Source: Arthrobacter sp. B1I2 (GTDB lineage: Bacteria > Actinomycetota > Actinomycetes > Actinomycetales > Micrococcaceae). Taken from it: DNA of 64,000 nt. The position numbers and the translations under genes were made by a program. The notes below the pieces were generated by a model that searched no databases, was not told the origin of the DNA, and worked only from the letters and a program-made list of their open reading frames with translations. Shown here piece by piece: positions 4,241-35,003 of this stretch. Location of the stretch: the NCBI RefSeq assembly GCF_030816485.1, contig NZ_JAUSYC010000001.1:682001-746000 (forward strand), in the 5' to 3' direction. Every line of letters begins with the position of its first letter. Positions within the stretch are counted from its first letter, which is position 1.

Positions 4241-4271
4241 ACCGGCGGCAGCGCTGGGGACGCCGGAGGCA

Positions 4272-9939: not shown

Positions 9940-10081
9940 GGCCGGAAGCGTTTGGGCTGGTCAGGAATGCGTTCTGCCCCGACGTGGTTGTACAAGCAGT
10001 GCGGGAAGACCTCCTGCGCACCGGTTTACAGACACTAGCGGGTCCGGCGGAAGCGGCGGATCCGGAATCGAGGATTCAGGC

Positions 10082-10840: not shown

Positions 10841-10852
10841 CGCCGGCCCGGC

Positions 10853-11317: not shown

Positions 11318-11397
11318 GAGTCCTCCTGGGAATGATCTTTCGCTCATCCTCGCAGACCCGTGCCGGGGGCGGCACCCGCGAAACGCGCCGGTCTCCT

Positions 11398-11973: not shown

Positions 11974-12064
11974 AAGCTGGCACTCCTCCTGGATAGCTTC
12001 CGGCAAGCGACATAAGACGGTCAAAGTACCATGCAGCAACAGTGCGATCCAGAGGTGGAAGCCC

Positions 12065-14353
12065 CTATACCCGGCTGGGGATGGCCGAGTCCGCAGACGC
12101 GCTGAAGCTGTGTGTCCCGCCCTCAATGGTCTGCCGCGCACCGTCCGGAAGCACGACGTCGGCCGCCACTCCGTCGGGGACGGTCGCCTCCAGCCGGAAC
12201 TCCCCGCCGTCGAGCCTCCATTCCACCCGGACCTCACCGTGCGGAGTCTCCAGCGACGTCCTGGCCCAGTGGATCCCCTCCCCCGGCTGCGGCGCGATGA
12301 GAACCTTCGCATACCCCGGCTCCAGCGGGCGGATGCCGCCGATGGCCTTGTGCATCCAGTCCGCCACTGCGCCCAGGGCGTAGTGGTTGAAGCTGGTCAT
12401 TTCGCCGGGGTTGATGGTGCCGTCCGGGAGCATCGAGTCCCAGCGTTCCCAGACCGTGGTGGCACCCATGGTTACCGGGTAGAGCCAGGACGGGCAGCCC
12501 TCCTCCAGCAGCAGCCGGTAGGCCTCGTCCACGTGGCCGGTGTCGGTGAGCGCGTGGGTGATGAACGGCGTCCCGGCGAACCCCGTGGACACCCGATAGT
12601 TGTTGTCCCGGACCAGATCCGCAAGCCGGTTCCCTGCAAACTCCCGCAACTCCGGAGTGTCCAGCACGTCGAACGCGAGAGCCAGTGCGTAAACGGTGGT
12701 GCAGTCGCTGAAGATGGTGCCGTCGGCTGCCACGTAGTGCTCGGCGAAGGAATGACGCACCCGGGCGGCGAGTGCCTCAAAGTACGCTTCGTCGTCGTGC
12801 TTCCCCAGCAGGCGTGCAGCCTGCGCGGTGATGCGTGCCGTCCGGTACATGCAGGCGGTGGCCACCACGCCGGTGTCCGCCTTGGCTGCCCACGGCTGGT
12901 CGGGCGCGGCGTCCGGGTCCAGCCAGTCGCCGAACTGGAAACCGGAGTCCCACAACCCGGTGGGCGAGAGCAGGCCCTCCACCCGGCGGGTGTGCGAGGC
13001 CATGGAGTCGAACTGGTTCTCCAGCACGCTGATGTCGCCGTAGGCCTCCCACAAGGCCCACGGCACCCAGACGGAGGCTTCGCTCCACAGCGCGGAGGAC
13101 TCGGGCTCCGGGAATTCCGCCGGTTGCGGGCAGTACTTCAGGGCGTCCGGCACGGTAATCGGGACCAGGCCGTCCTGCGCCTTCTGCTCCGCGGCGAGGT
13201 CCAGCAGCCAGTCCTGCAGGAACCCCTTGACGTCGTACAGGTAGGCGGCGGTGGGGGCGAACACGCCGATGTCGCCCGTCCAGCCGAGCCGCTCGTCCCG
13301 CTGCGGGCAGTCCGTGGGCAGGTCCAGGAAGTTGCCCCGCAGCCCCCAGACGATGTTGCGGTGCAGCTGGTTCACCAGTTCGTTGGAGCATTCGAAGGTG
13401 CCGATGCGGTTCAAATCGGAGTGGACCACCACGGCTTCGAGGTCACCTTCCGCCAGGGTTCCCGGCCAGCCGGCGATTTCAGCGTAGCGGAAGCCGTGGA
13501 AGGTCCTGGTGGGCTCGAAAACGTCCTGGCCCCCGGACAGGATGAACGTGTCCGTGGCTTTGGCGGAGCGCAGGGGGCGGACGCCCAGCTCGCCGTCTTC
13601 CAGGACCTCGGCGTGCCGCACGGTGATCATCCGGCCAGCCTCGCCCCGGACGGTGAACCGCAGCCAGCCCACCAGGTTCTGGCCGAAGTCCACCAGCGTC
13701 CTGCCGCTTGGCGAGGTGAAGATTTCCACGGGACGCACGACGCCGGCACGCACCACGGGCGGGCCCACCGGCTCAGCCAGCCGGTCGACGTCGAACGCCA
13801 CCTTGCGCACGCCCGTCCAGGCAGCGCCGGGGGCAAAGCCGGGCTCCGCCCAGCCCCTTTGAAGGCGGCGGGCGTCAATGGTCTGCCCGTCGTAGAGGTC
13901 GTTGGAGGTGGTGGTTGAGGGGCCTGCCAGCCAGGTGGTGTCCGAGGCAACCGACTGCACGTGGCCGTCCGCGAACCCGATGTCCAGCTGGCCGAAAAAG
14001 CCCAGCTCACTGCCGTAGAGGTTGGACATGCCGTGCCAGGCGAGCCTGCCGCGGTACCAGCCGTTGCCCAGTTCCACCCCGATTGCCGTGGACGGCCCCA
14101 CCAGGGACGTCACGTCGTAGCTGCGGTAGCGGAGCCGCCATTCGTAGGAGCTCCAGCCGGGGCTCAGCACGTCCGGGCCCACCGGAACGCCGTTGATGGA
14201 TGCCTCGTAGACGCCGAAGGCGGTGGCCCGCAGCGTCGCCTTCACCACTGCGCCGTGGCCCTCCTCAAGGGTGAACTCCTTCCGAAGCAGCGGGGCACCG
14301 TCGAAGTCCTGCTCGGGCGAGATCATGGCGGCGAGCCAAGGGGCAGATGTCAT
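12065..14353 (-). CDS. Alpha-L-rhamnosidase, GH78, lacking the N-terminal domain
   Basis: 762-residue GH78 enzyme. It begins directly at the point that corresponds to about residue 130 of the enzyme at 6229, so the first beta-sandwich domain is absent. The lectin-like domain, the barrel with CPQRDERLGWTGD, the MTSFNHYALGAVADW region and the C-terminal beta domain are present. No signal peptide is seen. It lies 39 bases downstream of the ABC ATPase gene on the same strand, so it is probably the last gene of the importer operon, hydrolysing rhamnosides after uptake. Confidence 0.9.
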   Translation of the reverse strand: MTSAPWLAAMISPEQDFDGAPLLRKEFTLEEGHGAVVKATLRATAFGVYEASINGVPVGPDVLSPGWSSYEWRLRYRSYDVTSLVGPSTAIGVELGNGWYRGRLAWHGMSNLYGSELGFFGQLDIGFADGHVQSVASDTTWLAGPSTTTSNDLYDGQTIDARRLQRGWAEPGFAPGAAWTGVRKVAFDVDRLAEPVGPPVVRAGVVRPVEIFTSPSGRTLVDFGQNLVGWLRFTVRGEAGRMITVRHAEVLEDGELGVRPLRSAKATDTFILSGGQDVFEPTRTFHGFRYAEIAGWPGTLAEGDLEAVVVHSDLNRIGTFECSNELVNQLHRNIVWGLRGNFLDLPTDCPQRDERLGWTGDIGVFAPTAAYLYDVKGFLQDWLLDLAAEQKAQDGLVPITVPDALKYCPQPAEFPEPESSALWSEASVWVPWALWEAYGDISVLENQFDSMASHTRRVEGLLSPTGLWDSGFQFGDWLDPDAAPDQPWAAKADTGVVATACMYRTARITAQAARLLGKHDDEAYFEALAARVRHSFAEHYVAADGTIFSDCTTVYALALAFDVLDTPELREFAGNRLADLVRDNNYRVSTGFAGTPFITHALTDTGHVDEAYRLLLEEGCPSWLYPVTMGATTVWERWDSMLPDGTINPGEMTSFNHYALGAVADWMHKAIGGIRPLEPGYAKVLIAPQPGEGIHWARTSLETPHGEVRVEWRLDGGEFRLEATVPDGVAADVVLPDGARQTIEGGTHSFSASADSAIPSRV

Positions 14354-21607: not shown

Positions 21608-21618
21608 CAGCGCACGCC

Positions 21619-22056
21619 CTAATCGGCACCCGGCCCGCGGATCACCAGTACCGGGCAGTGTGCGTGGTGGATGGTCTGGTGGGATACAGAGCCGAGCAGC
21701 ATCCCGGTGAATCCTCCGTGGCCGCGTGAGCCGACAACGACGAGGCCTGCATCCCGGGAAGCATCGATAAGCGCCGAAGCCGGATTGCCCTCCACGATTT
21801 TCCCCGTAACAGGCACCCCCCGGTCCTTGACGCGTTCGAGCTCGGCTTCAAGGATGGCCTGCGCGTCCTTCTGGAAAATTTCATAATCCCAGGCCGTGCC
21901 AAGGGCATCGCTGACGTAGGGAAAGTTCCAGGCTGCCAGCGCCTGTATCTCGGCTCCGCGCAGCCTGGCCTCTTCAACAGCCCAGTCCATGGCAGACCGG
22001 GACTGGTCGGAGCCGTCCACGCCCACCACAATCCTGAAAGTCCCGCTACCTGCCAC
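21619..22056 (-). CDS. Universal stress protein, UspA family
   Basis: 145-residue single Usp domain. The N-terminal strand is IVVGVDGSDQSRSAMDWA. The C-terminal ATP-binding pattern G-2x-G-9x-G-S reads GSRGHGGFTGMLLGSVSHQ, so it probably binds ATP. The cytosolic protein is linked in this family to starvation, hypoxia or redox stress. It is preceded by a small Cys-rich protein gene on the same strand 36 bases away, possibly in one transcript. Confidence 0.92.
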   Translation of the reverse strand: MAGSGTFRIVVGVDGSDQSRSAMDWAVEEARLRGAEIQALAAWNFPYVSDALGTAWDYEIFQKDAQAILEAELERVKDRGVPVTGKIVEGNPASALIDASRDAGLVVVGSRGHGGFTGMLLGSVSHQTIHHAHCPVLVIRGPGAD

Positions 22057-22092
22057 GGTTCCCCTCTTCCTGCTGCACCATTGCCGGCGGGA

Positions 22093-22377
22093 CTAGCCCT
22101 GGCCCGTTGGCGCGCCCTGCGCCGGCACTGCCACCGTGGCGTTCCCGGCTTTAGCGGCCTTCTGGGGATTTCCTGCTTCCCTGGCGCAGTGGAGGCAACA
22201 GTAGATGCCTGCGTCGCTTTCAACAGGGTGGCCCAGGATCCGGCAGCCGCAGTGCTCGCATGCCGGTGCCATCATGTGGATGGCGCATTCGAAGCTGTCG
22301 AAAGTTCCGGTTTGGTGCCCCATGCTGACGGTGAACATGCGGCCCTCGCTGCTGCCGCAGACATCACATGAGCCCAT
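22093..22377 (-). CDS. Small Cys/His-rich, probably zinc-binding protein
   Basis: 94 residues with CxxC pairs at both ends (CDVCG, CEHCGC, CCLHC) and conserved histidines in the middle. The arrangement resembles small actinobacterial metallothionein-like or zinc-ribbon proteins. The tail after about residue 70 is Ala/Gly-rich and probably disordered. The ATG at 22377 has AGGAGG nine bases upstream. It sits just upstream of the stress-protein gene. Metal storage or redox sensing is possible but not shown by sequence alone. Confidence 0.72.
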   Translation of the reverse strand: MGSCDVCGSSEGRMFTVSMGHQTGTFDSFECAIHMMAPACEHCGCRILGHPVESDAGIYCCLHCAREAGNPQKAAKAGNATVAVPAQGAPTGQG

Positions 22378-22573
22378 GGTCTTTGCCTCCTGTTGTACTC
22401 GACTGATCCAGACACTCAAGTGGACTGCTGCCAGGAGCGGCCTGCCTAGGGGCAAAAGTCCCCCGGAGGCCCGGGGCCATTCGCGCAGCAGATTCTTCGA
22501 TCCCTTCCCATCCACCGGGCCGCACGTTCCGAACCCCAACCGTAGTACTGCAACCAAAGGCAAGGACGGGGCG

Positions 22574-22879
22574 ATGGATGCCGTGGACCAGCAATCCATG
22601 ACGGGTGCTGTCATCAAGGAGTACCGGCTGGATCTGGCACAGCTGTGGCTGGAGTTCGTTGGGCTGGGCGGGGACGCCTCAGAACAGCTCATCCGGGACT
22701 ACTGTGCGGGCGACGCCGCGCTGCCGGCAAAGGAACGTGACGCACTGGCGCAGGCCGTCAACGAACACTGTGCGGCCGTTGGCCTGCCGCTCCGGGCTCC
22801 CCTCAGCGAATCTGCCCTTTTCCTTTTGCAGCCGGAACGGCATGACCCGGAGCGGAAGGACCCCTACTCGTCGAAGTAG
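22574..22879 (+). CDS. Hypothetical acidic protein
   Basis: 101 residues, soluble, rich in Ala, Glu and Asp, with no motif I recognise. The start at 22574 follows AAGGA. Its 3' end overlaps the convergent GAF-ANTAR gene by 16 bases. The codon pattern looks normal for this genome. A helical regulatory or adaptor protein is possible, but there is no evidence for a function. Confidence 0.5.
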   Translation: MDAVDQQSMTGAVIKEYRLDLAQLWLEFVGLGGDASEQLIRDYCAGDAALPAKERDALAQAVNEHCAAVGLPLRAPLSESALFLLQPERHDPERKDPYSSK

Positions 22880-23616
22880 GTAAAGGTGTCCGCGGCGCCG
22901 GCAACTGATGCGACCACGGCGGCCGCAACATCCCGGAGTTTCATGTTCCGCGTGCTGGATGCGTCCGCCAACAGCTTGAAGGCCGCAGCCTGGCTGCACC
23001 GGTTCTGCGCCATGATGGCTCCGGTTGCCAGGTCGATCACGGTGCGTGTCTGCATGGCGGCGCTCATGCCGTCTTTCGTCTCTTCCAGCTTCAGCATCCG
23101 CAGGGCGAGTTTCAGGCCCTTGGAGGCCTGCCGGACGAACGCTTCCGCCGCATCAACACCGTTGGTGCCGAAGGCGACGGGCCGCGAGCAGTAGAACGTG
23201 AGCACTCCCTCCGAACCCCCTTCAAGCGCTGCGGGAATGCTCAGCACGGAGAGGAAGCCCCGGCCCTGGACGGCCTGGACGTACTCCGGCCAGCGCTTTT
23301 CCCGCCGCAGGTCGGCAACCAGCACGGTCGTCGCTGTCCGCATCGCCGTTCTGCCCGGACCGTCACCGAGTGTGGACTCCAGCTGCGATATGAGTTGTGC
23401 ACTGGGATTGCTGCCGGCGCTCGCCGCAGGCTTCTTGGGCCGCAGCACCACGATTTCACAGGAGCATTCGTGGCCCTGCCCGCCGAGCCGGGTGGCAGCG
23501 TAGGTCGCGAGATCCTGGAGAAATGCCTCAACCTCGGGGTTCTGCAGGAACGACTCCTGGAGATGCAGGGCAACGTCTGCGAAGTCTTCGTCTTCAGGCA
23601 CGCCGGCGTGGGGCAC
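22864..23616 (-). CDS. GAF-ANTAR RNA-binding antiterminator regulator
   Basis: 250 residues. A GAF-like sensor domain at about 20-170 is followed by a C-terminal ANTAR domain (about 185-240) with the pattern IDLATGAIMAQNRCSQAAAFKLL. ANTAR proteins bind paired RNA hairpins and stop transcription termination. I chose the GTG at 23616 because GGGAGGT lies eight bases upstream; an ATG at 23655 lacks a good site. A paralog with the same IMAQNRCS core is at 51241. Confidence 0.85.
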   Translation of the reverse strand: MPHAGVPEDEDFADVALHLQESFLQNPEVEAFLQDLATYAATRLGGQGHECSCEIVVLRPKKPAASAGSNPSAQLISQLESTLGDGPGRTAMRTATTVLVADLRREKRWPEYVQAVQGRGFLSVLSIPAALEGGSEGVLTFYCSRPVAFGTNGVDAAEAFVRQASKGLKLALRMLKLEETKDGMSAAMQTRTVIDLATGAIMAQNRCSQAAAFKLLADASSTRNMKLRDVAAAVVASVAGAADTFTYFDE

Positions 23617-23719
23617 GCGTCTTACCTCCCGGACAATAGTTAAGAGCCACATCACTGTGGCCGCCCACTGCCGGACGGTGATGCCAGCCTACCTTCGCCG
23701 CTGTCGTAATGTGTCAACC

Positions 23720-25276
23720 ATGACGCGCCTCTCCACCCCCTGCGGATCCGTCGATGGCAGCTCTTTGGTGACTGACGGGACCACAATCCATCGGTTCCTC
23801 GGCATCCCGTACGCCGGGCCGCCGTCGGGAGCCAACCGTTTCCGGCCGCCGGTACCGGTATTGCCTTGGAGCGGCGCGCTGGACTGCACTGCTCCCGGCC
23901 CGGCGGCGCCCCAAAACCCCGAGTCCCATGCACCTCCCGGCTCTACGCCGCGCTCCTGGAGCGAAGCGGGATGCCTGAACCTGAATGTCTGGACGCCGGG
24001 GACGGATGGACCGGCCAAACCGGTGATGGTGTGGATCCACGGCGGCGCATACCTCATGGGCGCCAACAGTGATGCAATGTACGACGGCACCCGGCTCGCC
24101 GCTGCGGCGGGCGTGGTGCTGGTGTCCGTCAACTACCGGCTGGGCGCGCTGGGTTTCCTGCACCTGGCGGACCTGCTGGGGGCAGGTTACGAGGACTCGT
24201 CCAACCTTGCCCTGCTGGACCAGCTGGAGGCCCTGCGGTGGATCCGCCGCAACATCGCCGCATTCGGCGGCGACCCGCACAACGTGACCGTTTTCGGCGA
24301 GTCCGCAGGCGCCGCAGCCATCGGGACCCTGCTGGGCATGCCGGCGTCGGAAGGTCTCTTCCGCCGGGCCATCATGCAGAGCGGCACGGCCGAACGCTAC
24401 TGCCGGCCGGAGGACTCGGCACGAGTCACCTCCACTTTCCTTGAGCTGTGCGGTCTGGACGCCTCTTCGGCCCAACACCTGCTCACGCTCCCGGTGGAGC
24501 AGCTGCTGCAAGCCCAGGCTGCGCTCGAACAGCGCGTCGCGGCGGAATCCTTCGCGGTCCCGCTGCCGTTCCAGCCCACGGTGGGCACGCCGTCGCTGCC
24601 GGTTCCGCCGCTCGACAGCGTCCGCAACGGCGTCAACCGCGGGGTAGACCTGCTGATCGGAACCAACCTGAACGAGGGCTCTTTCGCCGTCGAAATGCGC
24701 CCGCCGGCTCCTGCTGACCCGGACTACCCGGACCGTGCCGCCGCCGTGCTGTCCGGTGCCGGGGTTCCGCCGGCCCTTGCCTCCGGCTATGCAGACGCGC
24801 TGGCCCGGATGCTGCGCAGGGAACCGGCAGACAAGGAACTCCTGGAGGCGGCCATCGCGGATTCCCTCTACCGCCAGCCCAGCAACGGACTCCTGGCTGC
24901 ACGGCAGGTGGCTGCCGGCGGTGGCGCTCCCGGGAAAAACTTCGCCTACCTCTTCACCTGGCGGAGCCCCGCCATGGGCGGGAAGCTCGGCGCCTGCCAC
25001 GCGCTGGACATCCCTTTCGTCTTCCGGCAACTGGATGCGCCGGAAGCTGCCTTCCTCACGCGGGGCGAGGCGCCGCAGTCCCTCAGCGACGCCATGAGCG
25101 GGGCATGGGGCGCTTTCGCGCGCACGGGAACGCCCGGCACGCCTGCTCTTGCGTGGCCCGAGTATGGCGGGCACCGCAGCACCATGGTGCTCGACGGCGA
25201 GTCCCGGCTGGAAGCCGACCCCCGAAGCGAGATCCGCGAGTTCTTCGAAACCGTCAGGCTGCTGCCAGCGAGTTAA
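23720..25276 (+). CDS. Type B carboxylesterase (para-nitrobenzyl esterase family)
   Basis: 518-residue serine esterase. The family signature is FGGDPHNVTVFGESAGAAA with the catalytic serine in GESAG. The disulfide-region motif EAGCLNLNVWTP and the oxyanion motif IHGGAY are present. A C-terminal HALDIPFVF supplies the histidine. No signal peptide is seen, so it is probably cytosolic or released without Sec. The start at 23720 was chosen by homology; no clear ribosome binding site is visible. Its stop overlaps the 3' end of the frameshifted SRPBCC gene on the other strand by 23 bases. Confidence 0.9.
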   Translation: MTRLSTPCGSVDGSSLVTDGTTIHRFLGIPYAGPPSGANRFRPPVPVLPWSGALDCTAPGPAAPQNPESHAPPGSTPRSWSEAGCLNLNVWTPGTDGPAKPVMVWIHGGAYLMGANSDAMYDGTRLAAAAGVVLVSVNYRLGALGFLHLADLLGAGYEDSSNLALLDQLEALRWIRRNIAAFGGDPHNVTVFGESAGAAAIGTLLGMPASEGLFRRAIMQSGTAERYCRPEDSARVTSTFLELCGLDASSAQHLLTLPVEQLLQAQAALEQRVAAESFAVPLPFQPTVGTPSLPVPPLDSVRNGVNRGVDLLIGTNLNEGSFAVEMRPPAPADPDYPDRAAAVLSGAGVPPALASGYADALARMLRREPADKELLEAAIADSLYRQPSNGLLAARQVAAGGGAPGKNFAYLFTWRSPAMGGKLGACHALDIPFVFRQLDAPEAAFLTRGEAPQSLSDAMSGAWGAFARTGTPGTPALAWPEYGGHRSTMVLDGESRLEADPRSEIREFFETVRLLPAS

Positions 25277-25698
25277 GCGTGTCCCGGATGCCGTTCAGTG
25301 CCGGATCCCGAAGCGACATGAACGCAGGTTTCAGGAGCGGCTGGATGATCCTGGCCGGTCCGTTGATGCTGAACTCAGCCGTGTATTTGACCACCGAACC
25401 GGTCCCGTTGGGGCTGACGTCGATCGAGTCGAAAGCAGTCACGGTCTTGTTCTCGCCCCGCAGCTTGATGTGGTTGTCCGTCAGCTCGATGGACCTCATA
25501 GACCAGGGTCTGGCGCTTCCCCCGGAACTCGGACTCAGCGTGGTACTTGTGCCCCACGGCCACCGGCCCGGGGGTGAGCTTGTCCATGACAGGGGTGTTG
25601 GGGTCCCACTTGCTGGTGTTCTCGAACTCACTCATGAAGGCAAAGGCCTTCTCGGCGGACAGGTTGGTTTCCACACTTCCGGTGACTGTGATCATCAC
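25254..25698 (-). pseudogene. SRPBCC-family protein, single-base frameshift
   Basis: Two overlapping reading frames give the two halves of one SRPBCC (Bet v1-like, polyketide-cyclase fold) protein of about 146 residues. The first half runs ITVTGSVETNLSAEKAF to about QTLVYEV. The second runs from IELTDNHIKL to the end. Removing one base of the GG at 25491-25492 joins them smoothly into EVIELTDN. The gene starts at GTG 25698 or ATG 25695, against the stop of the upstream gene. Either a real mutation or a sequencing error could explain it. Confidence 0.8.
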
Positions 25699-25964
25699 CC
25701 CAGTCTAGGAGCCGACCCCAGCTGGGCGGCAGCCATCTTGTAGCAGAGTTTCCCCTCCAGTTCCCGGGGAGTAATCCACACTTCGTATCCCTCGTCCGCG
25801 GAAAAAAGCACCCGGCCCGCTGCGGAGTCGGCGGCGAGCCACAGTGCAGAGGAATCCTGCATGGCGTCATCGACCACTCCGGCCCGGACAAGCTCGGAAT
25901 CCTTGCGGACCTCCACGGGAGTTCCAACAAGCCGGCTCCAGTCCTGATAGCGGTAGGGCTTCAT
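25695..25964 (-). CDS. Conserved-looking small hypothetical protein
   Basis: 89 residues, soluble, beginning MKPYRYQDWSRLVGTPVEV, with no recognised catalytic motif. It has the look of a small beta-barrel or KOW/SH3-like protein, but I cannot name the family. GGGAGG lies a few bases before the ATG. Its stop overlaps the start of the SRPBCC gene, so the two were made as an operon. Confidence 0.6.
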   Translation of the reverse strand: MKPYRYQDWSRLVGTPVEVRKDSELVRAGVVDDAMQDSSALWLAADSAAGRVLFSADEGYEVWITPRELEGKLCYKMAAAQLGSAPRLG

Positions 25965-25990
25965 GATGGCCTCCCGGGGGTCCGTTGCTG

Positions 25991-26764
25991 TTAGTGGATG
26001 TGGCTGCCGCCGTTGATGTCGATGGTGGTGCCGGTGAGGTAGGCGGAGTCTTCGGAGGACAGGAAGGTGATCACGGAGGCCACTTCTTCCGTGGTGGCGT
26101 TCCGTCCCAGGGGAATGCCGGCGTTGATGGCGGCTTCCTGCTCTTCGGTGCTGCCCACGCGGATGTTGGTGTCCACGGCGCCGGGGGTGATGGCGTTGAC
26201 GGTGACGCCCGTGGTGCCAAGCTCACGGGCGAGGGCCTTGGTGAAGCCCAGGATGGCGGCCTTCGCAGCGGAGTAGGGGACCTTGCCGAACACGCCGCCG
26301 CCGCGCTGGGCGGAGACGGAGGACATGTTCACGATCCGGCCCCAGCCGTTTTCGATCATGTCCGGCAGGAACGCCTTGGTAACCAGGTAAGTGCCGGTGG
26401 CGTTGACGTCCATCACCTTGTGCCACAGCTCAAGGGTGGTTTCCAGGAACGGCACCGGGGAGGTGATGCCGGCGATGTTGGCCAGGGCACCGACCGGCGG
26501 AAGGTTGCCGGCGGCCACCTCGGCGGCGACGGCGGCCTGGGCTGCGGTCACGGAAGCCTCGTTGGCGACGTCGATTTCGTGGCCGAACGCGGGAACGTTG
26601 AATTCATTGCCGATTTCCGCGGCGACCTTGGCGGACTTTTCGCCGTCCAGGTCCAGGATCACGATGCCCCAGCCTTCACGGGCATAACGGCGGGCGGTGG
26701 TGATGCCGATGCCCCGGTCCGAGGTTGCTCCGGTGAGGACTGCAGTGCGGTGGATGGTGGTCAT
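25991..26764 (-). CDS. Short-chain dehydrogenase/reductase, catabolic locus
   Basis: 257-residue classical SDR. The cofactor motif TGATSDRGIG, the NxAG equivalent ANIAG, the catalytic serine in NMSS and YSAAK are all present. The acidic residue after beta-strand 2 (LDLDGEKS) favours NAD. It follows the TIM-barrel isomerase gene after 24 bases in one operon, opposite the MFS/transketolase operon. It probably oxidises a polyol or sugar that the isomerase or transketolase then handles; this is inferred from context. Confidence 0.85.
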   Translation of the reverse strand: MTTIHRTAVLTGATSDRGIGITTARRYAREGWGIVILDLDGEKSAKVAAEIGNEFNVPAFGHEIDVANEASVTAAQAAVAAEVAAGNLPPVGALANIAGITSPVPFLETTLELWHKVMDVNATGTYLVTKAFLPDMIENGWGRIVNMSSVSAQRGGGVFGKVPYSAAKAAILGFTKALARELGTTGVTVNAITPGAVDTNIRVGSTEEQEAAINAGIPLGRNATTEEVASVITFLSSEDSAYLTGTTIDINGGSHIH

Positions 26765-26788
26765 GATGGTGCTCCTTTGCGTTGTGCT

Positions 26789-27613
26789 TTAGATGAGGTC
26801 GGTGATGAAGCTTGCCGCCTTGGCGGCGGCGGCCGGGCGTTCGTCGTTGGTGACGTCCCGGGTTTCCAGTTCAAGTGAGAAGTGGCCCGCGTAACCGTCC
26901 GCGGCGAGCCGCTTCAGGCCACCGGCGAAGTCGGCGTCCCCGTTGCCGATGCTGAGGTTGATGTTCCCCGGCACGGCGTCGCGCAGGTGTACGTGGCTGA
27001 TTCGGCCGCGGTGCCGGTGGAGGTACGCCCGGATGTCCTCGCCGGACGCCACAATGTGGCTGAAGTCCATGACGATTCCGACGCCGGATCCGGCCAACCG
27101 GTCCGCCAGCAGTCCCGCGCGCTGCAGGTTCCAGCAGAACCGCAGAAAGTGCAGCGATTCCGTCCAGAGTTCGACGCCGAACTCCGCCGCCCGCTGACCG
27201 GCACCAATGAGCTGCGCGGCGATGAGGTCCAGGTCCTCCTCGACGCTCCGGACCGGGTTGTGGTCCAGGGCGCCGCAGGGCAGGACCAGGGCCTTGGCGC
27301 CGGTGTTGGCCGTGAGGGTGAGCAAGGCGTCCAGGTGGCGCTGCCTTGCTGCCTTGCCGTCGGCGTCGAGCACTGCGTTCAGGTCCCCAATGTCGCCGTT
27401 CACAGACCGGACGCGGAGGCCGGAGGCATCCACTTCGGCTGACACCGCAGCAACCGCGGCCGCATCGAGTTCGTAGGGAACGTGGTCGCACACACCGGGC
27501 AGTGCGCCCAGGTCGATCTCCTCGAAGCCCAGCCCCTTCATGGTGCGCAGGGCGCCGCCCAGGTCCTGGTGCCGGAAGCTGATGGATGAGCACCCGAGTC
27601 TGGAATGGAACAT
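26789..27613 (-). CDS. Sugar isomerase/epimerase, TIM-barrel (xylose isomerase-like)
   Basis: 274 residues of the AP-endonuclease-2/xylose-isomerase-like TIM-barrel family. The expected metal-site segments appear: LWTESLHFL, VMDFSHIVASGED, HVHLRDAVPG and FSLELET. Such enzymes bind a divalent metal and isomerise or epimerise free sugars or sugar acids. Start 27613 follows AGAGGA. It opens the operon with the SDR and is divergent from the MFS transporter. Three TGT-nn-ACA operators lie in the gap. D-apiose isomerase belongs to this fold class, so apiose or another branched or short sugar is a candidate. Confidence 0.82.
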   Translation of the reverse strand: MFHSRLGCSSISFRHQDLGGALRTMKGLGFEEIDLGALPGVCDHVPYELDAAAVAAVSAEVDASGLRVRSVNGDIGDLNAVLDADGKAARQRHLDALLTLTANTGAKALVLPCGALDHNPVRSVEEDLDLIAAQLIGAGQRAAEFGVELWTESLHFLRFCWNLQRAGLLADRLAGSGVGIVMDFSHIVASGEDIRAYLHRHRGRISHVHLRDAVPGNINLSIGNGDADFAGGLKRLAADGYAGHFSLELETRDVTNDERPAAAAKAASFITDLI

Positions 27614-27670
27614 CGTTGATCCTCTGGTTTGTGCCAAGCGGTAGTGATGGAGACCACAGTATCTGCGTCC

Positions 27671-27760
27671 ACTGTCAACAGTCAACTATGGAAGTCGACT
27701 GTTGACACTGAAGCATGATGGAGGTCACACTGGGTCGTATCAATTTGTTAACAGTCGACA
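27671..27760. promoter_or_regulatory. Three GntR-type operators in the divergent promoter
   Basis: Sites centred on TGT-nn-ACA occur at 27671-27682 (ACTGTCAACAGT), 27698-27707 (ACTGTTGACA) and 27746-27753 (TGTTAACA, inside TTTGTTAACAGTCGAC). The first two also form an inverted pair, TGTCAACAGTC and GACTGTTGACA. They lie between the isomerase and transporter operons. A matching 16-base palindrome lies before the GntR gene at 31194. Confidence 0.72.
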
Positions 27761-27800
27761 GCGGCGACTTCCTTCAGCCGCTCTTCGAAAGGGAACCACC

Positions 27801-29138
27801 ATGAGCAAAGATGCTCTGACCATGCGCGGTCCGGTCCACGGCACCAAGGACGCCAGGCGTGTTGCCATCGGATCCGGCGTGGGGGCCGTCATCGAGACCT
27901 ATGACTTCATCGGCTTCGGCACCGCTGCCGCACTGTACTTCGGCACCGCATTCTTCCCCGGGAGCGATCCTGTCACCGGCACCCTTGCCTCCTTCGCCAC
28001 CCTCGGCGTCGGTTTTGCGGCCCGTCCCCTGGGCGGCATCATCGGCGGCCACCTCGGTGACAAGGTGGGCCGCAAGCCCGTCCTGGTCGCCTCACTGATC
28101 CTGATGGGCCTGGCCACGTTCGCCATCGGCCTGCTCCCGACCTACGCGGCGGTGGGGCTGCTGGCCCCCGCACTGCTCGTCTTTGTCCGAATCGTCCAGG
28201 GCCTGGCCTTCGGCGCGGAATGGGGCGGTGCCATCCTGATGAGCTACGAGCACGCACCCTGGAAGACCAAGGGCAAGTACACCGGCATCGTCCAGGCCGG
28301 CTTCCCCGTGGGCCTGCTCCTGGCCAACCTGACCTTCCTGGCGAGCACCAGCCTCGGCGGCGAACTGGCCTGGCGCATCCCGTTCCTAGCAAGCATCGTC
28401 CTGGTGGTTGTCGGGCTGATCATCCGTTCCAAGGTCCCGGAGTCCCCCGTCTTCGACGAGGTCAAGGACAGCGGCACCATCGTCAAGTCGCCCATTGTCG
28501 AGGTCATCAGGACTGACTGGCGCAACATCGTCAAGGGCATCGGCCTGCGCATCGCCGAAACCGCCGGCTACGCCGTGTCCATCACCTACATGATTTCCTA
28601 CCTCAACAGCCAGCACCTGGCGGACAAGAGCCAGACCCTGGTCGCCCTCTGCATCGCCTCCGCTATCGGTATCTTTGCCACCCAGGCCTGGGCAGCCCTT
28701 ACCGACCGCATTGGCCGCCGTCCGCTGTACGTCTGGTCCACGGCCTTTGCCGCCCTGTTTGCGATCCCGATGTTCCTGCTGGTCAACACCGGCCTGTTCA
28801 TTGCCATCATCATCACCCTCGTAATCTCCTACGCGGTCTGCCAGAACTCCCTCGCCGGCGCCCAGGGCGCCTGGTTCCCCGAGCTCTTCCAGGCCAAGAC
28901 CCGCGCTTCCGGCGCCAGCCTGGCGTACCAGATCTCCGCCATGGTGTCCGGTTTCACCCCGTTCATCACCACCCTGCTGTTTGTCAGCTTCGGCTGGATG
29001 GGTCCGGCGTTGCTCTTCGGCACCTACGCCCTGATCGGACTCTGGGCCGCCATCGCCACCCGCGAAACCTGGGGCAAACGGGAGCGCGAGCTGGCTGACG
29101 AAGCCACCAAAAGCACCCCCAACACCGTCAACGCCTGA
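27801..29138 (+). CDS. MFS transporter, metabolite:H+ symporter family
   Basis: 445-residue membrane protein with twelve predicted helices. The N-terminal IGSGVGAVIETYDFIGFGTAAAL and the loop GGHLGDKVGRKPVL are typical of the MHS group, which moves sugar acids, shikimate, betaines or similar compounds with protons. Start 27801 follows GAAAGGGA. It is the first gene of an operon with the split transketolase and is divergent from the isomerase/SDR operon. The substrate is probably the molecule that all five genes degrade. Confidence 0.88.
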   Translation: MSKDALTMRGPVHGTKDARRVAIGSGVGAVIETYDFIGFGTAAALYFGTAFFPGSDPVTGTLASFATLGVGFAARPLGGIIGGHLGDKVGRKPVLVASLILMGLATFAIGLLPTYAAVGLLAPALLVFVRIVQGLAFGAEWGGAILMSYEHAPWKTKGKYTGIVQAGFPVGLLLANLTFLASTSLGGELAWRIPFLASIVLVVVGLIIRSKVPESPVFDEVKDSGTIVKSPIVEVIRTDWRNIVKGIGLRIAETAGYAVSITYMISYLNSQHLADKSQTLVALCIASAIGIFATQAWAALTDRIGRRPLYVWSTAFAALFAIPMFLLVNTGLFIAIIITLVISYAVCQNSLAGAQGAWFPELFQAKTRASGASLAYQISAMVSGFTPFITTLLFVSFGWMGPALLFGTYALIGLWAAIATRETWGKRERELADEATKSTPNTVNA

Positions 29139-29174
29139 ATGACCACCACGCGCCAAATGATCACGGAGCCAGTA

Positions 29175-30086
29175 ATGCCAACAGATACCGTCCAGGACCG
29201 TGCCCCACAGGGACCTAAACTGCAGACCGAAGTGACCCCGGGGCGGGTGGACAGGATCAGCGCCGCCGCCTACCGGATCCGGCACCACGCCCTGAACATG
29301 GGCGAGGTCCAGGGCCAGGGCTACGTGGGCCAGGCCCTCGGTGCCGCGGACATGCTCGCCACGGTCTACGGGGACCAGCTGAATTTCCGCGCCGGGGACC
29401 CGCACTGGGAGGCACGCGACCGGTTCCTGCTCTCCACCGGGCACTACGCAATCGGCCACTACGCTGCCCTCGCCGAGGCCGGGATTGTTCCGGTCGAGGA
29501 ACTGGAAACCTACGGCTCCGATGACTCCCGGCTGCCGATGTCCGGCATGTCCACCTACACGCCCGGCATGGAAATCTCCGGCGGTTCCCTGGGGCACGGC
29601 CTGACCATCGCCGTGGGCATGGCCCTGGGCCTGCGTTACCAGGGCTCAAGCGCCCGGGTGTTCAACTTCCTCTCCGATGGTGAGCTGGACGAGGGCTCCA
29701 CCTGGGAAGCGGCAATGGGGGCGCACCATCACCAGCTGGGCAACCTCACCGCCATGGTGGACATCAACGCCCTGCAGGCCGACGGCAAGACGGACACCGT
29801 GCTGCGCACCGAGCCGGTCACGGAAAAGTGGGAATCGTTCGGCTGGTACACCCAGCGGGTGGACGGCAACGACGTCGGCGCGCTGCTGACGGCGTTCGAC
29901 AACGCAGCCGCCCAGGCCGCCGCCGTCGGGCGTCCCTCCGTAATCCTGTGCGACACCAAGGTGGGCCGCGGGGTGCCGCTGCTGGAAGACCGCGAAAAGG
30001 CGCACTTCATGCGCATCGAAGAACACGAATGGCAGACCTGCCGCGAGCAGCTCACCGCCGGCTACGAAGGAAAGGCTTCAGCATGA
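29175..30086 (+). CDS. Transketolase, N-terminal subunit (TPP-binding)
   Basis: 303 residues equal to the thiamine-pyrophosphate half of transketolase. The TPP/Mg motif reads SDGELDEGSTWEAA followed by N, and the conserved STGHYAIGHYA and SLGHGLTIAVGMAL segments are present. Transketolase moves a two-carbon ketol unit between sugar phosphates. The start is uncertain: ATG 29175 has GGAG seven bases upstream, but ATG 29139 directly touches the transporter stop. It overlaps the C-terminal subunit gene by four bases, as expected for a two-chain enzyme. Confidence 0.9.
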   Translation: MPTDTVQDRAPQGPKLQTEVTPGRVDRISAAAYRIRHHALNMGEVQGQGYVGQALGAADMLATVYGDQLNFRAGDPHWEARDRFLLSTGHYAIGHYAALAEAGIVPVEELETYGSDDSRLPMSGMSTYTPGMEISGGSLGHGLTIAVGMALGLRYQGSSARVFNFLSDGELDEGSTWEAAMGAHHHQLGNLTAMVDINALQADGKTDTVLRTEPVTEKWESFGWYTQRVDGNDVGALLTAFDNAAAQAAAVGRPSVILCDTKVGRGVPLLEDREKAHFMRIEEHEWQTCREQLTAGYEGKASA

Positions 30087-31102
30087 GCACCACCACCGAG
30101 GCTCCCGACACGACCACAGCGGCCAAGCCCAAGCTGAAGACCTCCGCGATGATCGCCTCCTTCGCCGACCCCGGCCAGAAGACGTCCTCCGCACCGTTCG
30201 GGCACGCACTGGTCAAGGCCGCACAGGAGAATGACAAAATCGTCGGCCTCACCGCGGATCTGGGCAAGTACACGGACATGCACATCTTCGCCAAGGCCTT
30301 CCCGGAGCGGTTCTTCCAGATGGGCATGGCAGAGCAGCTGCTCTTCGGCGCCGCCGCCGGCCTGGCTGAGACCGGGCTGGTGCCGTTCGCCTCCACTTAT
30401 TCGGTGTTCGCCGCCCGCCGCGCCTACGACTTCCTCTGCCTGGACGCTGCCGAACCGAACCTGAACGTCAACATCGTGGGCGGCCTGCCCGGCCTGACCA
30501 CCGGGTACGGCCCCAGCCACCAGGCCACCGAGGACATGGCGATCTTCCGGGGCATGCCCAACCTGACCATCGTGGACCCCTGCGACTCGGTGGACATCGA
30601 GCAGGCAGTCCCCCAGCTTGCAGCTTCGGAGGGACCGACCTACCTGCGGCTGCTGCGCGGCAACGTGCCCACCGTGTTGGATGAGTACGGTTACACGTTC
30701 GAACTCGGCAAGGCCAAGGTCCTGCGCGGCGGCAACGACGTCGTGTTCATCTCCTCCGGCCTGATGACCATGCGTGCCCTGCAGGCAGCGAAGGCCCTCG
30801 CGGCACACAACGTGGACGTCGCCGTCGTGCACACCCCCACGATCAAGCCGTTCGACGCCGCAACCGTCCTCAAGGAAATCAACACGGACCGTCTGGCTGT
30901 CACCCTGGAAAACCACTCCGTGGTGGGCGGCCTGTTCGAAACCGTCGCGTCCGCCGTCGTCACCGCGGGCCTGGGCAAGCGCGTGGTGCCGGTCGCGCTC
31001 CCGGACCAGTTCCTGGACGCGGGCGCACTGCCCACCCTGCACGACCGCTACGGCCTGGCCGTGGACCGCATCGTGGCCAAGGTCCTGGCTGAGCTCGGCT
31101 AA
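30083..31102 (+). CDS. Transketolase, C-terminal subunit
   Basis: 339 residues. A pyrimidine-binding domain has the catalytic glutamate in MGMAEQLLFGAAAGLA, and a C-terminal domain covers about 210-335. Split transketolases of this kind act in apiose (AptAB), sulfoquinovose (SqwGH) and other specialised pathways, while primary carbon metabolism uses the one-chain enzyme. Its position behind an MFS transporter and beside an isomerase and SDR makes a dedicated catabolic role likely. The acceptor sugar cannot be read from sequence. Confidence 0.9.
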   Translation: MSTTTEAPDTTTAAKPKLKTSAMIASFADPGQKTSSAPFGHALVKAAQENDKIVGLTADLGKYTDMHIFAKAFPERFFQMGMAEQLLFGAAAGLAETGLVPFASTYSVFAARRAYDFLCLDAAEPNLNVNIVGGLPGLTTGYGPSHQATEDMAIFRGMPNLTIVDPCDSVDIEQAVPQLAASEGPTYLRLLRGNVPTVLDEYGYTFELGKAKVLRGGNDVVFISSGLMTMRALQAAKALAAHNVDVAVVHTPTIKPFDAATVLKEINTDRLAVTLENHSVVGGLFETVASAVVTAGLGKRVVPVALPDQFLDAGALPTLHDRYGLAVDRIVAKVLAELG

Positions 31103-31133
31103 GACCTGCAGCCCGGGCATCAGGACATTCCGG

Positions 31134-31169
31134 AAAGCACGGCACCGGTCCCGGCCGGTGCCGTGCTTT
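31134..31169 (+). terminator. Terminator hairpin after the transketolase operon
   Basis: A perfect 15-bp stem, 31134-31148 with 31155-31169, has a 6-base loop and ends in TTT. It lies 31 bases past the stop and before the operator of the GntR gene. It should separate the two transcripts. Confidence 0.75.
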
Positions 31170-31193
31170 CTGCCGTACTATCGAAACTACTTC

Positions 31194-31209
31194 CGACTGT
31201 AAACAGTCG
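31194..31209. promoter_or_regulatory. GntR autoregulatory operator
   Basis: CGACTGTAAACAGTCG has perfect 7-base arms around AA and lies 25 bases upstream of the GntR start. It shares the CTGT-nn-ACAG core with the sites at 27671 and 27698. This makes self-control and control of the divergent promoter by this regulator likely. Confidence 0.75.
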
Positions 31210-31234
31210 ACTTATGACATTGAGGACAGAAGCC

Positions 31235-31894
31235 ATGGCCGGACTGACCGCCCCGCTGCTGGGACTGGAAAAGAAGAGCCTGCGCGAGCAGGCGCTCTCG
31301 GCGCTGAGGACCGCCATCACCAGTGGCGAGCTGGAGCCCGGCCGGCACCTGGTGGAGACAGAACTTTCCGAAATGCTGCAGATCAGCCGGGGCACCCTTC
31401 GGGAAGCCCTCCGCCAGCTGGAGCAGGAGGGGCTACTGTCCGCAGGGCCGCGCGGCCGGCTGTCGGTCCGGCACCTGGACGAAAAGGACATCCGGGACAT
31501 CTACGCCGTCCGCGCCGCTTTGGAATCCCTTGCCGCCCGGACCTTGTGCGAACTGCCGGACCGGCAGCACGTCACCGAATCCCTGCACAAAGCCATCGAC
31601 GCCATGGCGGCGGCAGCCAGCGGAAGCCTCGAGGAACGGATCGAGTCCGACCTTGAGTTCCACCGCACACTCTGCCGGCTCACCGGCAACGAAACGCTGC
31701 TCCATTCCTGGGAATCACTGGAGGGCTCCATCCGCATGTCCATCATGTTCGCCGGCCTTCAAAAAGGTGTCAGCAACATGAGCGTGGACCGCCACAAGGA
31801 CATCGTGGCAGCCATCGACACCGGGGATGCCACCCTGGCCCGCAAGACCATCCTGGAACACATGGCTACCGCTGCCGCGAACCTGGTGGCTTAG
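31235..31894 (+). CDS. GntR regulator, FadR subfamily (FCD domain)
   Basis: 219 residues. A winged helix-turn-helix at about 15-75 has the recognition pattern ISRGTLREALRQLEQEGLL. An FCD domain at about 90-215 includes DLEFHRTLCRLTGNE and the late histidine in DRHKDIV. I chose ATG 31235; starts at 31214 or 31163 would place the operator in or against the coding region. It probably represses the 26-31 kb catabolic unit and senses a sugar-acid-type inducer. Confidence 0.87.
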   Translation: MAGLTAPLLGLEKKSLREQALSALRTAITSGELEPGRHLVETELSEMLQISRGTLREALRQLEQEGLLSAGPRGRLSVRHLDEKDIRDIYAVRAALESLAARTLCELPDRQHVTESLHKAIDAMAAAASGSLEERIESDLEFHRTLCRLTGNETLLHSWESLEGSIRMSIMFAGLQKGVSNMSVDRHKDIVAAIDTGDATLARKTILEHMATAAANLVA

Positions 31895-32465: not shown

Positions 32466-33518
32466 TCAGGAAGCTGCGCTCCCGCGTACCACCAGTTCGG
32501 CCGGATAGATTACCGGGTCCAGCCGTTGATCGGGGTTCTCGATGGCGCGGATCAAGAGCTGTCCCGCTGCCACCGCCATGTCAACCATCGGATGGGCGAC
32601 CGTGGTCAGTCCCAGGCCGTCGGCAGCGAGGATGGAATGGTTGTCGAAGCCAACAACGGCCACGTCGTCAGGCACACGCCGGCCCATGCTCCGCACGGCG
32701 TCCACCACGCCCAGCGCCATGAGGTCCGAGGCGGCGAAAATGCCGTCCAGCCCGGGCGATTGGGTGAGGAGGCTCTTTGCGGCGCCGGCACCGCCCGCCG
32801 TCGTGAAGTCGCCGTGGATGACCGGGCCGGGCTGCAGCCCGGCCTCACTGAGCCCACGCATCCATCCTTCCAGGCGGTCGACGGCGGCTGTCATGTCAGT
32901 GGGACCGGCAACAGTTCCCAGCCTGGTACGTCCCATTTGGGCCAGGTGCCGCGCAGCCAAGCGGCCACCCTCAAAGTTGTCCAGGTCGACAAAGGGCAGC
33001 CCTGAGGCCGTGTCCCATGGCCTGCCTATAAAGACTGTTGGCAGTCCTGTTTCCCCCAAGGTCTCCACCCAATCGTCTGCACGGTGGTGTGATACCACGA
33101 TTGCCCCGTCCACGTGGCCACCGCGCAGGTACCGGAGGGTCCGCGCGGAGTCGTCCCCCGCCCGGGACATCAACAGCACGAGCTGCATGTCGGTATTGCG
33201 AAGTGCTTCATTAACGCCCGTGATCACGGCGGCGAAGTATGGATCCATCATGACCCGCGCATCCGGTTCCGGAATGACCAGCGCAACCGATGCCGTGCGA
33301 CGGGTCACCAGGCTGCGTGCGGCACGGTTGGGCGTGTAGCCCAGGGTAATGATCGCGGCATCGACGGCGGCCTGGGCTTCCGGGCTGACCTTCGATCCGC
33401 CGTTGATGGCCCGTGAGGCAGTGGAGCGGGACACCCCGGCAGCCGAGGCCAGATCCTCCAGCGTCGGACTTGGCCGCCCCGCCCTGGCAAGGGCGGGGCG
33501 GGTAGTCTTTTCGTTCAT
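32466..33518 (-). CDS. LacI-family regulator, CebR-like
   Basis: 350 residues. The N-terminal helix-turn-helix and hinge (TLEDLASAAGVSRSTASRAI, then GYTPNRAARSLVTRRT) are followed by a periplasmic-binding-protein-like sugar sensor. In Streptomyces the homolog CebR binds the TGGGAGCGCTCCCA palindrome and is released by cellobiose. Three near-perfect copies of that palindrome lie at 38302-38427 in front of this operon, which makes the CebR assignment strong. The gene is the last of the ceb-like operon and overlaps the frameshifted glucosidase by one base. Confidence 0.8.
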   Translation of the reverse strand: MNEKTTRPALARAGRPSPTLEDLASAAGVSRSTASRAINGGSKVSPEAQAAVDAAIITLGYTPNRAARSLVTRRTASVALVIPEPDARVMMDPYFAAVITGVNEALRNTDMQLVLLMSRAGDDSARTLRYLRGGHVDGAIVVSHHRADDWVETLGETGLPTVFIGRPWDTASGLPFVDLDNFEGGRLAARHLAQMGRTRLGTVAGPTDMTAAVDRLEGWMRGLSEAGLQPGPVIHGDFTTAGGAGAAKSLLTQSPGLDGIFAASDLMALGVVDAVRSMGRRVPDDVAVVGFDNHSILAADGLGLTTVAHPMVDMAVAAGQLLIRAIENPDQRLDPVIYPAELVVRGSAAS

Positions 33519-35003
33519 TACACAGACAATACGACACCCCGTCCAGAAGATGGCATGTGGAGGCCGGCAGTGGTCAAGGCGTTAGCAGCGGCCACCTCGC
33601 TGTACCACAGAGCGCTTGCTTTCGGTATCCTCTCCTGGGTTTGATAGTCCACCCTGACCAGACCAAAACGCTGGTGGTATCCAAAGGACCACTCGAAATT
33701 GTCCATGAGGGACCAGGCCAGGTAACCGCGGACATCCACACCGTCAGCAATGGCAGCGTGGACAGCCTCCAGGTGGGCGGAGAAAAACGAGAGCCGGTCC
33801 TGGTCGTCAACGAAGCCGGATGCGTCCGGGACATCATCGTATGCAGCACCGTTTTCGGTGATGTAGACCGGGATTTCCGCCGGACCGGTGTACTCGGCCT
33901 GCAGCCTGTTAAGAAGTCGCCGCAGCCCCTCCGGCTGGACTTCCCACCCCATGCCGGTGACAGGTAGCCCCCGGGGGACGGAGCGCGCGCCATCTGCGGC
34001 GACAAAGGGGGAAGACGTCGGGCGGAGCGCCTGCCCCGCGGCCGCCCCCGGCACCTCCTCCCCACCCTCGGATGGGGCTTGGGGATCCTTCGTCACGGAT
34101 TCTCCGTGGTAGTAGTTGACGCCGAGCAGATCCAGGGGCCCCGAAATGATGTCCAGGTCGCCCTCCCGTACAAAATCAACCAGCCCCAAGTGCGCAACAT
34201 CCGCCAGGAGGTCGACCGGGTACTCCCCCTTGAACAGCGGATCCAGGAAGATGCGGTTGAACTGCCCATCCATCCGCCTGGCGGCGTCACAGTCACCTTC
34301 GCTGTCCGGATCCCGGGGATCCGCCACGGTCAGGTTCAAAGTGATGCCCAGGGCGGCGTCCTCATCCAGAGTGCGCACTTCCCGGGTCGCGAGTCCGTGG
34401 CCGAGCAGAAGATGGTGGGCCGCGGCCAGCGCGGACCGGGGTTCCTGCCGGCCCGGCGCGTGGACGCCGGCCGCGTAGCCAAGGAATGCCGACGCACCAG
34501 GGTTCGTTCAGGGTGGTCCAGAACCGGACCCGGTCGCCCAAGGCGTTATGCATAACCGCCGCATATTCGGCGAAGCGGTAGGCGGTTTCCCGGTTCGCCC
34601 AGCCGCCCTTGTCCTCCAGCGCCTGCGGCAGGTCCCAGTGGTACAAGGTCAACCAGGGCGTGATGCCGGCCGTGAGCAGCTCATCCACCAAGCGGGAGTA
34701 GAAAGCGATGCCTTCGGGGTTGGGCGTCACACCGTCAGGCATGCACCGGGCCCACGACGTGGAGAAGCGGTAGGCCTGCATGTTCAACTGGCCCATGAGC
34801 GCTACGTCCTGCCGGTAGCGCCGGTAATGGTCGCAGGCCGCGTCTCCGTTATGCCCGTCCGCCACGGCTCCGGGAATACGGGCGAAGGTATCCCAAATCG
34901 AGTCCTGCCTCCCGTCCGCGTGGGTGGCGCCTTCGATCTGATAGGCAGCCGTGGCGGCACCCCAGAGAAAATCCTGGGGAAACGAAAGTGGGGTGAAACT
35001 CAT
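33518..35003 (-). pseudogene. bglC: GH1 beta-glucosidase (bglC-like), single-base frameshift
   Basis: The N-terminal reading frame begins [18 protein letters not shown] and reaches TLNEPWC, including the acid/base E167. It then loses frame. The other frame continues with [14 protein letters not shown] to the end and carries the nucleophile in YITENG. Removing one C at 34493 (the GACGCA run) restores one protein of about 494 residues, close to the family length. Without repair the cell would make only the first 213-residue piece, with no activity. Its start overlaps the permease stop (ATGA). Confidence 0.85.

Follow-up and report, generated by a model that had tools for sequence, protein, structure and literature searches.

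In the D-threitol and erythritol pathways of Mycobacterium smegmatis, the DAK-family kinase DerK and the RpiB-like isomerase DerI lead to erythrose 4-phosphate. In the oxidative D-apionate pathway, the decarboxylation of 3-oxoisoapionate yields L-erythrulose. Part of the enzyme list of the D-apionate pathway is given in PMC11747546. Two other routes use a split transketolase (TK), encoded as two subunits: the D-apiose route of the AptAB enzymes (E. coli SE15, ECSF_RS02670-RS02715; PMC13001218), and the sulfo-TK route of sulfoquinovose (SqwGH, SqwI), whose second round has a C4 ketose as the substrate of TK and of which the available part of the description contains no sugar kinase step (PMC9594981). 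We report here on a gene cluster with a split TK in Arthrobacter sp. B1I2 (contig NZ_JAUSYC010000001.1), at positions 26789..31894 of a stretch of 64,000 nucleotides (contig positions 682,001 to 746,000) that is called the window. This copy of the cluster has lost a kinase/isomerase pair carried by most of its relatives, its TK has a strongly altered substrate pocket, and the cluster possibly serves the degradation of a small sugar acid by way of a ketotetrose.

Results

Two divergent operons with a common operator

The original prediction had grouped a TIM-barrel isomerase (ISO), an SDR, an MHS symporter, a split TK and a GntR regulator into one regulon, from gene order and shared operators. 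Profile scans of the window proteins confirmed all the genes named:

25966..25986, no strand: site of the gap for DAK kinase and RpiB (2.3 kb in relative L060); 22 bp left between two collinear blocks
25991..26764, minus strand: SDR-family dehydrogenase, second gene of the ISO-SDR operon (PF13561, E 6.6e-57; PF00106)
26789..27613, minus strand: AP_endonuc_2 (xylose-isomerase-like) TIM barrel, ISO, 274 residues (PF01261, E 2.3e-23)
27677..27759, no strand: divergent promoter region; operator copies at 27694 and 27750 (both exact) and at 27677 (one mismatch)
27801..29138, plus strand: MHS-type MFS symporter (TIGR00883, 341 bits, under the cut-off of 443)
29139..30086, plus strand: split TK, N-terminal (thiamine diphosphate pyrophosphate) subunit, TK-N (PF00456, E 1.1e-40)
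30083..31102, plus strand: split TK, pyrimidine and C-terminal subunit, TK-C (PF02779, 5.8e-32; PF02780, 8.1e-25)
31202..31211, plus strand: exact operator copy upstream of gntR
about 31235..31894, plus strand: GntR/FCD regulator (PF00392, PF07729; FCD E 4.6e-25)

The genes form two divergent operons, SDR-ISO on the minus strand and MHS, TK-N, TK-C and GntR on the plus strand, on either side of one common promoter region. TK has the two-subunit form, with PF00456 in one chain and PF02779 plus PF02780 in the other, and its adjacent genes overlap by ATGA. The SDR gene lies just beyond the coordinates originally given, 26789..31894. The starts of the TIM barrel (27613), symporter (27801), TK-C (30083) and GntR (about 31235) genes were corrected by means of the reading frame, the operators and the relatives. 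No kinase gene was found beside the cluster genes within the window.

A scan of genome contigs yielded 185 relatives; the analysis was continued with the best 80, to which all counts out of 80 refer. They are nearly all Arthrobacter, Pseudarthrobacter and Paenarthrobacter, plus the mycobacteria L136 and L138 and a metagenome-assembled genome of Microbacteriaceae (L139). The conserved neighbourhood that the original prediction had proposed to look for was found: the full eight-gene order, GntR-TKC-TKN-MHS on one side of the promoter region and ISO-SDR-DAK-RPIB on the other, is present in 57 of the 80. A strong ISO orthologue occurs in 12 of 198 genomes of the order, own genome included (E ≤1.6e-51; next match 5e-13). 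At phylum and class level orthologues are few (3 of 396 genomes at E 1e-40 and 7 of 394 at E 1e-30, own genome counted). Our literature searches found no paper describing this cluster.

The operator core, AACAGTCGAC, has four exact copies in the whole genome of 4,679,250 bases; the control, the same pattern read backwards, has eight. Three of the four are at this locus, at 27694-27703 (minus), 27750-27759 (plus) and 31202-31211 (plus), with the one-mismatch copy at 27677, and the fourth is within coding sequence that resembles, by eye, a Ser/Thr protein kinase. In all 77 relatives that have ISO, MHS, TK-C and GntR matches, the divergent promoter region holds one to four copies (at most one mismatch), at a density of 12.2 per kb compared with 0.019 per kb elsewhere in the loci; a copy upstream of gntR is found in 56 of them and none in 21. 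Of the loci outside the group of close relatives, L043, L046, L184 and L185 have the operator, and the same scan did not find it in L044, L047, L048 and L049. These positions bear out the proposed single regulon, and the GntR/FCD protein is presumed, from its sequence and from these sites, to be an autoregulated repressor of both operons.

The kinase/isomerase pair of the relatives is deleted in the window

The lack of a kinase had been taken for a property of the pathway. This part of the original prediction did not hold: a DAK-type kinase gene directly follows the SDR gene in 62 of the 80 relatives. In 59 it is itself followed by RPIB, encoding an RpiB-like isomerase, and in the three further DAK-bearing relatives (L065, L067 and L116) the contig ends within or just past DAK. 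TK is found together with DAK/RpiB in 57 of the loci. The row nearest to the window is L060 (97% identity over 1011 columns). Blastn matched window positions 21613-25965 to L060 positions 18396-14044, and 25987-26777 to 11711-10921, with collinear flanks; L060 carries 2.3 kb with DAK and RPIB between the two blocks, and the window does not. The pair has been deleted locally in the window strain. A kinase-free pathway design was rejected because of the 62 DAK-bearing relatives and of this clean gap.

The operon kinase belongs to the fused DAK family (NF011049, above cut-off). No intact adjacent DAK was found in 18 of the 80 relatives: pieces of DAK follow the SDR gene in L105, L117, L118 and L119, a partial DAK is present in L082, a lone RPIB in L112 and an RPIB piece in L137. 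A search for kinase open reading frame (ORF) matches revealed no trace of DAK or RPIB after the SDR gene in ten other kinase-less loci nor in the window, where one match (E 1e-30) is to the over-long start of an L060 ORF that overlaps the SDR gene, and the others are not better than E 0.01. On a tree of SDR, MHS and TK-N (78 rows, 60 with DAK and 18 without, the window among the latter), the kinase state changes at least 13 times, and 12 changes are forced by well-supported branches. That these changes were losses rather than gains is suggested by the DAK and RPIB remnants, by the fixed gene order and by the mycobacteria L138 and L184, which carry the pair. TK can also be lost, as L063 and L139 keep ISO, SDR, DAK and RpiB without it.

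Side by side with L060, the pairwise dN/dS values of the window genes were 0.02 (SDR), 0.11 (ISO), 0.05 (MHS), 0.10 (TK-N), 0.03 (TK-C) and 0.06 (GntR), values which also span the time prior to the kinase deletion. The remaining cluster genes are under purifying selection.

A co-regulated kinase elsewhere in the genome, which the original prediction had named as evidence that would count against it, was found in part: the kinase exists, and no sign of co-regulation was detected, as the 18 kb around it contain no operator copy with at most one mismatch. This other fused DAK (G000:C1:137882-139579) shows 54-58% identity with four operon DAKs, against 57-82% within this set of four, and is therefore a paralogue, not the relocated operon gene. 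DAK paralogues were surveyed in 39 of the 80 genomes (L117 was left out). A full-length DAK is present elsewhere in 15 of the 17 kinase-less genomes searched; the other two, G609 and G619, have two-part DhaK/DhaL genes instead, to which G609 adds two short DAK pieces. The genome also carries a parallel locus, L140 (G000:C1:130001-148000), where positions 3301-13735 encode an AP_endonuc_2 protein of 353 residues that looks unrelated to ISO, a 3HCDH dehydrogenase, two SDRs, DAK, RpiB, a divergent triosephosphate isomerase (TPI), a GntR protein of the same subfamily and two galactonate-type transporters. L140 may be an L-erythrulose counterpart of the cluster.

An altered transketolase pocket fixed among the relatives

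The split TK was aligned with E. coli TktA (EcTK) and AptAB, and 87 rows were included in a census in which at least three genomes occur twice (L039/L061, L040/L089 and L041/L077). Among the canonical residues H26, H100, R358, S385, H461, D469 and R520 of EcTK, only R520 is kept in the window; the changes are H26 to Tyr, H100 to Ser, R358 to Ser, S385 to Tyr or Thr (the three-sequence alignment gives Thr, the large one Tyr), H461 to Gly and D469 to Tyr, although in a HMMER alignment to the C. hydrogenoformans chain, which has one loop deletion, D469 may be deleted rather than replaced. EcTK residues H66, H261, E411 and H473 are kept, and so are the cofactor residues D155, E160 and N185. In the census, Tyr at position 26 and Ser at position 100 are found in all 87 rows, Tyr at 385 in 85 (two gapped), Gly at 461 in 81 and Ala in four (two gapped), and Tyr at 469 in 85 (one Leu, one gap); position 358 varies (Ser 64, Pro 12, Asn 5, Ala 3, Gln 1, gap 2). 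The ordinary transketolase of the same genome (L001) agrees with EcTK at every position compared.

D-erythrulose is the 3R ketotetrose. Among the results given in PMC3657141, wild-type EcTK acting on propanal shows 58% S, the D469Y enzyme 68% enantiomeric excess (ee) of R and the H26Y enzyme 88% ee of R; EcTK S385Y is expected to clash with the substrate phosphate (PMC5073344). Because of the shift towards R with Tyr at positions 26 and 469, of the expected clash at 385 and of the configuration of D-erythrulose, we infer that this TK may handle a 3R, unphosphorylated C4 ketose.

Isomerase, dehydrogenase and transporter

ISO residues E152, D183, H209 and E248 are unchanged in each of the 12 relatives aligned, the most distant of them at 40% identity, and we take this E-D-H-E set to bind metal, by analogy with D-tagatose 3-epimerase. 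The predicted structure (predicted local distance difference test, 70.9) matches folds spread over the whole sugar epimerase/isomerase superfamily, where rows within one Z unit are tied. The hydroxypyruvate isomerase, IolE and IolO equivalogs were rejected (31, 34 and 19 bits for cut-offs of 353, 290 and 300). ISO is best modelled as an isomerase, epimerase or decarboxylase acting on an oxo acid. L050 (G155:C11:1655001-1674000) retains SDR, MHS, TK and GntR and has lost ISO, of which only a piece of 33 residues was found.

The best NCBIfam and PDB relatives of the SDR are FabG/acetoacetyl-CoA reductase-type SDRs, none above cut-off, and our best guess is that it oxidises an imported acid. L045 has no SDR match; two beta-hydroxyacid dehydrogenase genes stand there with ISO and TK, for both of which the best model is L-threonate dehydrogenase (207 and 201 bits, below the cut-off of 350). 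In L047 and L048, which belong to one genus, a conserved Gfo/Idh/MocA dehydrogenase adjoins the split TK and may be an alternative entry enzyme.

The MHS symporter scores 298 bits with the shikimate transporter model, below cut-off. TRAP DctP/DctM genes replace it or stand beside it in L046, L048 and L139. FCD proteins are often organic-acid sensors. The suggestion that the transporter type points to an acidic substrate thus gains from the TRAP systems and the FCD regulator, and the dehydrogenases of L045 hint in the same direction. In L139, at 687-9092, a TRAP system, a DRL-family oxidoreductase (PF21135), a FadR-type regulator and a DUF1537-type kinase (PF07005/PF17042) occupy the place of MHS and TK.

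Beyond the cluster, at 33518-35003 (minus) of the window, a protein that looks by eye like a GH1 beta-glucosidase is broken into two overlapping ORFs (34362-35003 and 33518-34378). Its syntenic counterpart in L061 is a single ORF of 494 residues, and the break is a frameshift or a sequencing error.

Discussion

A possible route from a sugar acid to a ketotetrose

We consider it possible, though short of likely, that the SDR oxidises a sugar acid after its import and that the TIM-barrel enzyme converts the product to a ketotetrose, probably D-erythrulose, which is then phosphorylated by way of DAK/RpiB or cleaved by TK. The MHS symporter would bring the acid in and the SDR would turn a hydroxyl into a keto group; the TIM-barrel enzyme would act on the oxo acid either as a decarboxylase or as an isomerase that places the keto group at C3, with CO2 lost and erythrulose, most likely the D form, left. 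In the complete operon of the relatives, DAK and the RpiB-like isomerase would lead to erythrose 4-phosphate. From the unphosphorylated ketotetrose, the split TK would pass a two-carbon unit on to an aldose phosphate, with glycolaldehyde left over; cleavage of a C4 ketose by TK has a precedent in the sulfo-TK (PMC9594981). In the window, TK or a paralogous kinase encoded elsewhere would have to perform the last step, because the kinase/isomerase pair is deleted. The locus would be one branch of a small-sugar-acid regulon whose carbon ends as ketotetrose.

The fused DAK and the RpiB-like protein next to it, which matches D-erythrulose-4-phosphate isomerase as its second-best model (149 bits, below the cut-off of 240), suggest the ketotetrose, and the gene content of L140 counts in favour of it; the oxo acid is suggested by the L045 dehydrogenases. 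Isomerisation or decarboxylation of oxo acids is known for AP_endonuc_2 enzymes such as OtnI and OiaC. An erythrulose scheme requires TPI for the L form alone. The operon showed no TPI-like gene, and this argues for the D form, as does Tyr at the EcTK H26 and D469 positions. The low dN/dS values of TK, ISO, SDR, MHS and GntR (0.02-0.11 with L060) argue for use of the cluster without its operon kinase. D-pentonate oxidised at C3 would give D-erythrulose after CO2 loss. It seems unlikely, taken as a whole, that D-pentonate or a similar C5 acid is so oxidised and decarboxylated and that the route ends with a natural, 3R-reversed TK cleaving unphosphorylated D-erythrulose; TK and DAK/RpiB would in that case be alternative exits from one ketotetrose, and the kinase could therefore be lost repeatedly.

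Several observations weigh against the ketotetrose route. No cluster protein passes a curated, substrate-naming cut-off in the profile scans, the best model for the RpiB-like protein is a plain ribose-5-phosphate isomerase (RPI_actino, 201 bits, over the cut-off of 168), and the 3HCDH protein of L140 is closer to 3-hydroxyacyl-CoA dehydrogenases (1.9e-48) than to lambda-crystallin (1.2e-31). Both TK and DAK are missing from the 20 kb examined in L049 and in L185, and a strict either/or of the two genes was dropped for this reason. A close (≥73%) paralogue of the own-genome DAK is found in 14 of 17 kinase-less and 14 of 22 kinase-bearing genomes, so that a kinase may act from elsewhere; the association of kinase loss with a paralogue is weak. 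E. coli AptAB likewise lacks R358, S385, H461, D469 and R520 and acts on apulose 4-phosphate, therefore a changed phosphate pocket is no proof of an unphosphorylated substrate. Finally, the published stereochemical effects concern propanal in E. coli TK, not erythrulose.

Other readings of the cluster

A tetritol or tetrose route, in which the SDR would oxidise D-threitol or erythritol, or the TIM barrel would interconvert tetroses and erythrulose, before DAK and RpiB act as in the D-threitol/erythritol pathway, would account for the DAK/RpiB pair, for the Zn-dependent alcohol dehydrogenase found near this pair in L044 and for the DthD-type SDRs among the many SDR models matched. It is nevertheless unlikely: the DthD/GolD model scores 146 bits for a cut-off of 286, the transporters (MHS, TRAP) come from acid-carrying families, and the AP_endonuc_2 step would be superfluous for a neutral polyol whose dehydrogenase already yields erythrulose. 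The association of TK with DAK/RpiB in 57 loci would also be expected if TK were an ordinary helper, passing the erythrose 4-phosphate made by DAK and RpiB, a standard TK substrate, into the pentose phosphate pathway, and AptAB does take phosphorylated substrates despite its changed pocket. We find this slightly harder still to accept, since the genome already has the ordinary transketolase L001 with standard EcTK residues, 17 loci in which the operon DAK is missing or damaged still retain TK, and a Tyr in place of S385 would impede the binding of phosphosugars, as proposed for EcTK S385Y (PMC5073344).

Tyr at the D469 position, common to E. coli AptB, would fit a free-apulose route, with the TIM barrel as apiose isomerase, TK cleaving unphosphorylated apulose and DAK, a family named for dihydroxyacetone kinase, phosphorylating the dihydroxyacetone produced; some DhaK/DAK gene that could replace the operon DAK is present in all 17 kinase-less genomes searched. 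This proposal is less likely again, as the cluster has neither the sugar ABC importer nor the FGGY kinase of apiose clusters, H26 and H100, kept by AptAB, are changed in this TK, and RpiB would have no role. Least probable of these is a TK working in the building direction, the TIM barrel making hydroxypyruvate from tartronate semialdehyde and TK joining it with glycolaldehyde to give erythrulose for DAK/RpiB. The condensation is a classic TK reaction (PMC7661550), and the similarity of ISO to hydroxypyruvate isomerase noted above is weak; L063 and L139 have no TK, and erythrulose must therefore form there independently of it.

If the route to a ketotetrose is correct, a widespread genus of soil bacteria possesses a route for sugar acids, via erythrulose, that was not found in the literature searched, and two substitutions known from protein engineering to reverse the stereochemistry of transketolase have become fixed in a single natural enzyme, which would be useful for biocatalysis. 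As the missing kinase is a deletion, pathway logic drawn from one genome would have misled. The cluster probably serves an unusual small sugar acid in Arthrobacter-like soil bacteria, and the fixed TK pocket is its most notable feature.

Comparison with known systems

As originally predicted, the cluster fits neither named split-TK route exactly. With the AptAB route it has in common the split TK, Tyr at D469 and the loss of R358 and H461; it differs by lacking the FGGY kinase, the sugar ABC importer and the H26 and H100 residues of that route. The standard apiose route was rejected, as no FGGY gene was found among the cluster genes and the kinase of the relatives is a DAK. The sulfo-TK route shares the split TK and an RpiB-family (PF02502) isomerase, as far as described in PMC9594981; since no kinase step appears in that description, the lack of a kinase alone would not separate the two. 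Judged by marker genes rather than by the SqwGH sequences, the window cluster differs in having no SqvD-type (PF02952) isomerase or sulfonate-processing enzyme among the scanned proteins, which led us to reject a sulfoquinovose route, and in having AP_endonuc_2, the SDR and, in relatives, DAK. By the markers tested, the cluster is not the AptAB or the sulfo-TK pathway. The split TK of Carboxydothermus hydrogenoformans (6YAK; PMC7661550) has the same two-subunit form and is the best PDB match for both window halves (TK-C with its C chain, E 4e-66), but keeps the GEDG loop and His at H100.

The D-apionate pathway has the same logic, from oxo acid to erythrulose to erythrose 4-phosphate; it differs in that the window cluster holds no candidate for a DRL-family oxidoisomerase. 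A DRL gene was found in 9 of 23 genomes searched and adjoins the cluster in only one (G621, locus L139). The DAK kinase beside an RpiB-like isomerase in 59 of the 80 relatives matches the DerK/DerI route, from which the cluster is set apart by the TIM-barrel enzyme, the split TK, the acid transporter, an entry enzyme that is here only predicted and the absence of the pair from the window operon. In conclusion, the cluster is like the split-TK routes in its ketose-opening TK and like the DerK/DerI routes in the module that the window has lost.

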